Of a stretch of DNA of 64,000 nucleotides, positions 48,462 to 49,216 are shown one piece after another. The stretch is from Bacillus sp. FJAT-18017 (GTDB lineage Bacteria > Bacillota > Bacilli > Bacillales > Cytobacillaceae), in the NCBI RefSeq assembly GCF_001278805.1, contig NZ_CP012602.1:5051501-5115500 (forward strand). Reading direction: 5' to 3'. Made by a program: the position numbers and the translations under genes. Under the pieces are notes generated by a model that had not been told where the DNA came from, did no database searches, and saw only the letters and a program-made list of their open reading frames with translations. Every line of letters begins with the position of its first letter. The first letter of the stretch is position 1.

Positions 48462-48492
48462 AAAATAACTGCATGCCTAAAGACATGCAGCA
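48462..48492 (-). terminator. Terminator of the candidate selenoprotein gene
   Basis: CTGCATG / CATGCAG stem with TTATTTTTTT on the reverse strand, 7 nt after the stop at 48499. Confidence 0.85.
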
Positions 48493-48498
48493 GTTTGG

Positions 48499-48999
48499 TT
48501 ATTGGCCAGTTACTTTACTAGCGGCGTAAGGAATAATCTCAGCGATTTGATCACCAAAAGGGTCCAGCTGCTGAGATTCGAGAACATTTCCTTTCTTATC
48601 AAGGATAGCGAAACCCCTAAGAGATTTAGGGCCACTAGGGTCTTTTAATTCTGCCTTTTCGATCAATACAAGGTATTTGTCAGAAAGAAGGGTATAATCA
48701 AGCCCCAGGTCTTCCTTCATTTCCTTGTGATCCTCAGGTGAAGACGCACTCAAAGCATATACATCCCCAGGAAACTGATTAAATAATTCTTTGTTCTTCT
48801 GCAGCTCGACCAGCTGCGATTTACAATAGTCTCAGGTATTGCCTGTAAAAAAGAATACGAGCGTAGGCTTGTCCTTCTTTTCAAGTGATACCTCTTTGCC
48901 TTGGTCATCAAGTATAGCTTTGTTCCCTGAGCAGCCTGCCAGGGTAAAAACAACTGCCAATATTACGTAAAAACCCACATAAAGGCTGCGTTTCTTCAT
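48499..48999 (-). CDS. Thioredoxin-fold redoxin lipoprotein with in-frame TGA at the active site (candidate selenoprotein)
   Basis: One uninterrupted frame of 167 codons apart from a single TGA at 48834-48832. The protein has a lipoprotein signal with lipobox LAGC (Cys at residue 23), then KPTLVFFFTGNT, TGA at codon 56, DYCKSQLVELQKN, SASSPEDHKEMKEDLGLDYT and LRGFAILDKKGN, a redoxin/AhpC-TSA layout. The TGA replaces the first Cys of a CxxC motif, the usual place of selenocysteine in UxxC redoxins. The coding sequence after it is undamaged. It has AAAGGTG upstream, a -10 TATAAT at 49055-49060 and its own terminator. If TGA is read as stop only a 55-residue signal fragment forms. Needs selABCD elsewhere in the genome; otherwise it is a nonsense mutant. 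Confidence 0.75.
48801..48817 (-). promoter_or_regulatory. Candidate bacterial SECIS hairpin
   Basis: Reverse strand GCAGCT-GGTCG-AGCTGC: a perfect 6-bp stem with a 5-nt loop. The loop begins 20 nt after the TGA and starts with GG, as required of bacterial SECIS elements. Its GGTC matches the GGUC of the E. coli fdhF loop as I remember it. Confidence 0.6.
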
Positions 49000-49216
49000 T
49001 TTTTCCCACACCTTTCACCAATTCATCGATAAACCCTCATTGGGGATTTACCTTATTATATCCCACCTAATACCCATTGGAGTATTAAATTTATTTGAAA
49101 CATAAAACAAGCCACACATTGCTGCAATATTTATAACGACACCTGGAACATTGCTCCACCCTCAAATATTTAGCCCCGCTATCCTTTGTCCAAGAGCTGT
49201 ACTGCAGGAGAGAGTC

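Follow-up and report, generated by a model that had tools for sequence, protein, structure and literature searches.

We analysed a stretch of 64,000 nucleotides from the genome of Bacillus sp. FJAT-18017 (5.27 Mb, single contig; positions 5,051,501 to 5,115,500 of NZ_CP012602.1, here G000:C1:5051501-5115500), referred to below as the window, which carries on its reverse strand the gene of a redoxin-like lipoprotein containing one in-frame TGA. The gene extends from an ATG at 48999 to a TAA at 48501-48499, and the single TGA, at 48834-48832, is codon 56. If this codon is read as selenocysteine (Sec), the product, which we call the Sec redoxin, has 166 residues and the motif UDYC at residues 56-59; its conceptual translation is MKKRSLYVGFYVILAVVFTLAGC...FFFTGNT*DYCKSQL... 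(asterisk, TGA). The N-terminus is hydrophobic and contains the lipobox LAGC, whose Cys23 is invariant in 26 of 26 aligned proteins of clade-1, one of the two clades compared here. The protein is thus predicted, with high confidence, to be an extracytoplasmic lipoprotein. The features of the locus are:

48499..48999, reverse strand: reading frame of the Sec redoxin lipoprotein (166 residues, counting the TGA as Sec); in comparison with the relative L023, the ratio of non-synonymous to synonymous substitution rates (dN/dS) is 0.031 both 5' and 3' of the TGA
48931..48942, reverse strand: lipobox L-A-G-C, residues 20-23, read from the sequence; Cys23 is the presumed site of lipidation
48832..48834, reverse strand: TGA coding for Sec56, which opens the UxxC motif; conserved in clade-1, clade-2 and the order
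48823..48825, reverse strand: Cys59 codon, second position of UxxC; aligns with the peroxidatic Cys of peroxiredoxins
48801..48817, reverse strand: selenocysteine insertion sequence (SECIS) hairpin, 6-bp stem GCAGCT/AGCTGC, loop GGTCG; assigned from sequence, conservation, folding and the constraints on bacterial SECIS elements (bSECIS)
48616..48618, reverse strand: Arg128 codon; aligns with the conserved Arg of peroxiredoxins and is invariant in alignment A4
49011..49016, reverse strand: possible ribosome-binding site GAAAGG, 11 nt 5' of the ATG, suggested by the sequence
48468..48491, reverse strand: intrinsic terminator-like hairpin, 3' of the TAA stop

A preliminary description of this DNA had outlined the same frame from ATG to TAA, with its single TGA, UxxC motif, LAGC lipobox and terminator, and the hairpin GCAGCT-GGTCG-AGCTGC at 48817-48801, whose loop begins with GG; all of this was confirmed in the sequence. 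It had also supposed that the gene is annotated as two fragments. Standard reading does cut the frame at the TGA, but the open reading frame 48750-48953, taken there for the N-terminal piece, is read in a different frame; the N-terminal piece that does share the gene's frame spans 48832-49011 (59 aa, GTG start).

The TGA is widely conserved. A search of the family found a match in 109 of 193 genomes, with the TGA in 102 of the 109. The remaining seven matches (G001, G115, G125, G140, G162, G164 and G192) are weak (33 bits at most) and stop-free; they were classed by score and stop content alone, outside the set of sequences read. One of the 102 TGA genomes, G062, has a partial match. All eight genomes of the same genus, including the window's own, have the TGA, as do four named relatives (Bacillus sp. 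EB01, Bacillus sp. FJAT-27225, Neobacillus notoginsengisoli and Bacillus sp. FJAT-27445), and no TGT or TGC was found at this codon in close strains. The TGA is therefore neither an error of sequencing nor a mutation confined to one strain, both concerns raised in the preliminary description. In the order Bacillales (397 genomes, 136 genera), searched with a clade-1 profile at the stricter threshold of E <= 1e-15, 65 genomes matched, and 68 of the 69 matches have exactly one TGA; the stop-free match, in G391, is an ordinary CPVC redoxin. With G391 set aside, the TGA form is present in 64 genomes and 29 of the 136 genera. The codon occupies the same position in 30/30 distinct clade-1 and 20/20 distinct clade-2 sequences. 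Two irregular copies were seen in the family: the TGA copy at G069:C219:38196-38585 has an extra in-frame TAG (assembly 87% complete), and G149 also holds a stop-free remnant of clade-1 type consisting of 38 C-terminal residues.

A search of the class gave 22 matches in 19 of 398 genomes, 13 with the TGA and 9 without. The active-site reading covered all but four of these (G721, G730 and G740, without a stop, and G701, with one TGA). The stop-free matches in G235 and G677 and the second match in G238 proved to be CPVC/CGVC redoxins, and those in G880 and G656 are AhpC-like. The only full-length Cys form read is that of G654 (L146), which is stop-free, lipoprotein-like and has C-S-A-C at the Sec site; a SelA search of this distant genome gave no match. 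The Cys expected at codon 56 in homologues thus exists in one form. In a partly resolved tree (77 rows, including 12 of the 17 genomes with linked SCO genes described below), the Cys form clusters with the Sec proteins found in G592 (99/89) and G585 (100/98), but the branches are long. The best reading of these sequence comparisons is that the subfamily is real and nearly Sec-only.

The second line of evidence is the hairpin. Its stem starts 14 nt and its loop 20 nt after the TGA. Section 5 of PMC13188914 gives limits for bSECIS elements of a 3-9 nt loop, a 4-16 bp stem and 16-37 nt from TGA to loop, together with a G in the first two loop positions and a minimum free energy of at most -7.5. 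The window's hairpin lies within these limits (5-nt loop GGUCG, 6-bp stem, 20 nt, -12 kcal/mol for a 48-nt segment). Conservation carries more weight here than folding: synonymous sites in this region are close to frozen. In the 30 distinct clade-1 sequences, codons +4 and +5 after the TGA are AAA in 29/29 and TCG in 26/30, and codons +6 to +10 are invariant (CAG 30/30, CTG 30/30, GTC 30/30, GAG 28/28 and CTG 30/30), compared to shares of 0.58, 0.23, 0.30, 0.32 and 0.23 expected from codon usage in these genes. Codon +1 is GAC in 29/30, and from codon +11 onwards codons are mostly mixed. Over 46 distinct sequences from both clades, 98.6% of stem cells are paired, and one stem pair varies between G-C (32), A-U (11) and G-U (3).

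A SECIS model, R1, searched against the window's own genome (150 of 3176 first-look candidates scored), gave 68.2 bits for this gene, 53.6 bits for a paralogue and nine hits of 14.3-22.4 bits. All nine were discarded, four because a TGA is missing where it would be expected and five for want of a frame that could plausibly encode a selenoprotein. R1 did not recover the TGA of SelD and is therefore uninformative on other selenoproteins. The paralogue, a second Sec redoxin with TGA at C1:4145709-4146140 (L057:4962-5474, forward strand), is 31% identical, with the motif UTHC and the SECIS stem GCAACT/AGTTGC.

The machinery for Sec insertion, which the preliminary description had proposed to look for, is complete in this genome: tRNA-Sec (65.2 bits, cut-off 47; independently called by ARAGORN as tRNA-SeC(tca)), SelB (362.8 bits, cut-off 242.25), SelA (572.9 bits, cut-off 267.9) and SelD (401.2 bits). 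The selD gene (G000:C1:2484086-2485012, L018) adjoins selA and itself has one in-frame TGA, in KAGUGCK. Across genomes, tRNA-Sec is present in 172 of 193 in the family and 179 of 397 in the order, and accompanies the TGA gene in 102/102 and 63/64 cases, respectively; none of the 21 family genomes without tRNA-Sec has a TGA match. In the order's exception, G224, the best tRNA-Sec candidate scores 43.4 bits, under the cut-off; since this genome holds SelA at 555 bits, its tRNA-Sec is probably divergent or lost in an assembly gap. With TGA and SECIS conserved and the machinery present, the earlier proposal of a selenoprotein is borne out by comparative evidence, and we regard the gene as almost certainly a functional selenoprotein gene.

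The Sec redoxin matches PF00578 above the gathering score (64.1 bits, cut-off 26), with its UxxC motif present as UDYC, and the best structures for its fold include the peroxiredoxins AhpE, Bcp and PrxQ. Canonical peroxiredoxins have the active site PxxxT/SxxC plus an Arg with a catalytic role. In the peroxiredoxin alignment Cys59 falls at the peroxidatic position, Sec56 takes the place of the Thr/Ser of TxxC and Thr52 that of the Pro, while Arg128, invariant in the 36 sequences of alignment A4, aligns with the conserved Arg. The classical site is thus not reproduced in the Sec redoxin, which also differs from AhpE, Bcp and PrxQ in being a predicted exported lipoprotein. The idea that the TGA replaces the first Cys of a CxxC pair holds for the UxxC motif itself, and is refined by these peroxiredoxin equivalences.

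In an NCBIfam scan, the window's protein and six scanned relatives remained under every model's cut-off. NF053656 (TUGYCR motif thioredoxin fold (seleno)protein) gave 18.1 bits for the window's protein and at most 18.8 for the relatives (cut-off 100), and NF040769 (SelL-related redox protein) 18.2 and at most 36.6 bits (cut-off 120); like both families, the Sec redoxin has a redoxin-type domain and the match spans the active-site region. The label 'Prx-like thiol:disulfide oxidoreductase, UxxC' is tabulated in PMC13188914 and PMC9312934, and a table in PMC5029168 counts 32 such selenoproteins in 28 organisms; the related label 'Redoxin family protein' (PF08534, UxxC) appears in the same tables. 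On its sequence, the Sec redoxin fits the first label, having both the PF00578 domain and the UxxC motif of the Prx-like (PF00578, UxxC/UxxU) proteins, a likeness of domain and motif rather than of alignment to a reference protein. It differs from them as a lipoprotein subfamily of Bacillales that is almost solely Sec and has its own SECIS.

The gene neighbourhood of relatives provides a link to copper sites. In four related families (f36, f3, f43 and f46), every one of the 17 genomes matched in the search of the order has a CtaG and a SCO gene upstream in the same orientation. SCO adjoins the Sec redoxin gene in all but two of them, where a YtkA-like gene intervenes. The names come from Pfam, for CtaG and SCO in L109 and for YtkA in L112 and L113; the remaining loci were assigned by tblastn matches to these. 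In family f47, a cupredoxin-domain gene is directly downstream in the 4 genomes fetched of 10 matching. These 17 and 4 are counts of genomes; the 117 loci examined include repeats of one genome, and their flanks are mostly 1.5 to 4 kb, within which no other of the 117 showed CtaG or SCO. In the tree, the SCO-linked members form a grade, not a single clade. ctaG and sco are also reported as adjacent in B. halodurans (PMC9145763). By analogy with TlpA of Bradyrhizobium, which reduces ScoI and COX II (PMC6696091), the ctaG-sco linkage suggests reduction of copper-site cysteines by the Sec redoxin. The two resemble each other in that the Sec redoxin, like TlpA (reductant of ScoI and CoxB) and ResA, would be a membrane-anchored extracytoplasmic redoxin, and in that its gene stands beside that of TlpA's client, SCO, in these four families; it differs in being nearer to peroxiredoxins by sequence and in having Sec instead of Cys, and the shared function is presumed. 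The ResA model NF002854 (cut-off 170 bits) was not listed for the window's protein and scored 16.8-23 bits in 4 of 6 relatives.

We propose the following mechanism. The UGA at codon 56 would be decoded as Sec by SelB and tRNA-Sec under the control of the downstream hairpin. After export, the product would be anchored to the membrane's outer side through a lipid on Cys23. The Sec56-x-x-Cys59 pair and the conserved Arg128 belong to its peroxiredoxin-like domain. Sec56, as the presumed nucleophile, would most likely attack an extracytoplasmic thiol in oxidised form, as disulfide or sulfenate; Cys59, the likely resolving thiol, would convert the intermediate to an Se-S bond, which a putative membrane reductant would reopen. 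Like TlpA, the Sec redoxin of the related families would probably act on SCO and on the CuA cysteines in subunit II of cytochrome oxidase. We have good confidence in the account as a whole, that of a membrane-anchored selenoprotein acting as a UxxC thiol-disulfide reductant, and favour reductant over peroxidase by a modest degree. For a copper-site client in the SCO-linked families we see an even chance; its extension to the window's protein is tentative, neither CtaG nor SCO having been detected in the flanks of this gene or of the clade-1 and clade-2 loci, so that the client is borrowed from relatives. Equally speculative is the broader idea that, in many Bacillales, a dedicated selenol-based membrane reductant takes TlpA's place in maintaining the reduced state of the copper-binding cysteines in SCO and subunit II.

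Several observations weigh against this account. Folding of the 48-nt segment is a weak signal by itself (z -2.14; 6 of 200 shuffles as good). Two-sided change occurs in just one of the six stem pairs, a number equalled in 498 of 500 shuffles of the control, and the outermost pair is absent in 4 of 46 sequences; the same control never reached the observed number of two-side-changing cells or the covariation score (0/500 each). The Fisher probabilities for co-occurrence with tRNA-Sec (3.5e-8 in the family, 4.7e-24 in the order) are uncorrected for shared ancestry. In the flanks covered, neither CtaG nor SCO was detected beside the window's gene, its counterparts in the genus or the remaining clade-1 and clade-2 copies, and these neighbourhoods show no shared client. 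Finally, the conserved Arg and the peroxidatic placement of Cys59 would fit a peroxidase as well.

The main alternative is accordingly a selenoprotein that acts as a peroxidase anchored by its lipid, with H2O2 or a lipid peroxide attacked by Sec56 or Cys59 before the pair closes to Se-S. The peroxiredoxin fold (best structures including AhpE, Bcp and PrxQ), the position of Cys59 and the invariance of Arg128 would all be expected of such an enzyme, but the replacement of Thr/Ser by Sec and of Pro by Thr52 means that the canonical PxxxTxxC site is not intact, and the copper-site assembly genes neighbouring the gene in four related families point elsewhere. We consider a peroxidase unlikely, though a serious competitor, and retain the thiol-disulfide reductant as our preferred reading.

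Database records bear on whether the TGA could instead be read leakily by a near-cognate tRNA, or be a true stop dividing two polypeptides. A profile search of a protein database passed 108 proteins, one of which, P0108, is a distant CPYC redoxin. In 21 long proteins covering the active site, the Sec position is W, probably because gene calling on short contigs used code 4 and translated the TGA. Another 86 are pieces of 90-115 aa, too short to show the residue at the Sec site, and all 11 whose starts were examined begin after the TGA; P0029, P0031 and others, named 'redoxin domain-containing protein' (e.g. in Mesobacillus maritimus and Cytobacillus sp. NJ13), start shortly after it. Internal start codons downstream of the TGA and these stored C-terminal pieces speak for such readings. 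Against them, the TGA is kept together with a SECIS that fits published constraints, is nearly restricted to genomes with tRNA-Sec, and is replaced by Cys in a genome without a SelA match; we judge both very improbable. A pseudogene, disabled by mutation or misread in sequencing, gains from the stop in standard reading, the additional TAG of G069 and the remnant in G149, but is refuted by the TGA in 102 family genomes and 29 of 136 order genera, by the dN/dS of 0.031 after the TGA in comparison with L023 (for the six further relatives, synonymous divergence there could not be computed, a result that we attribute to saturation) and by the frozen synonymous sites at the hairpin, and deserves practically no credence. 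All four possibilities (pseudogene, sequencing error, leaky reading and split gene) were rejected on these grounds.

Our searches of the open-licence PMC literature yielded no recognised description of this lipoprotein, and a prior description elsewhere is possible. The UxxC Prx-like kind of selenoprotein is already known; because no NCBIfam cut-off was reached and no description recognised, we take the Bacillales lipoprotein subfamily as new, and it appears undescribed. This subfamily, present in 102 of the 193 genomes in the family and in 64 of 397 in the order (stricter threshold), is partly stored in databases as truncated 'redoxin domain' pieces, and it provides a compact natural set of SECIS elements for bacilli. 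According to PMC9145763, B. subtilis has no TlpA homologue and other oxidoreductases presumably do that work, and the paper does not settle what reduces the cysteines of CuA and Sco in TlpA-less bacteria; the ctaG-sco link offers a testable answer. Should a selenol reductant indeed take TlpA's place, selenium would be a direct input to assembly of the aerobic respiratory oxidase.

At the window's locus, the genes upstream are what we take to be an amino-acid ABC transporter and a methyltransferase-like gene, and the terminator separates the Sec redoxin gene from a downstream gene, presumably of GGDEF/EAL type. CsoR-like and HMA-DsbD genes, and others that we assume to be of CDF type, occur near a few clade-1 copies and are too scattered for use. 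One of them, L125:880-2685 (reverse strand, G012), encodes a protein with HMA and a DsbD-like membrane domain, with a cupredoxin match below the cut-off. Within 8.5 kb around the Sec redoxin gene of L116 (G253) lies a second frame with an in-frame TGA, in the motif RGTWUPNCQKQL, possibly another selenoprotein of the CPxC redoxin kind.
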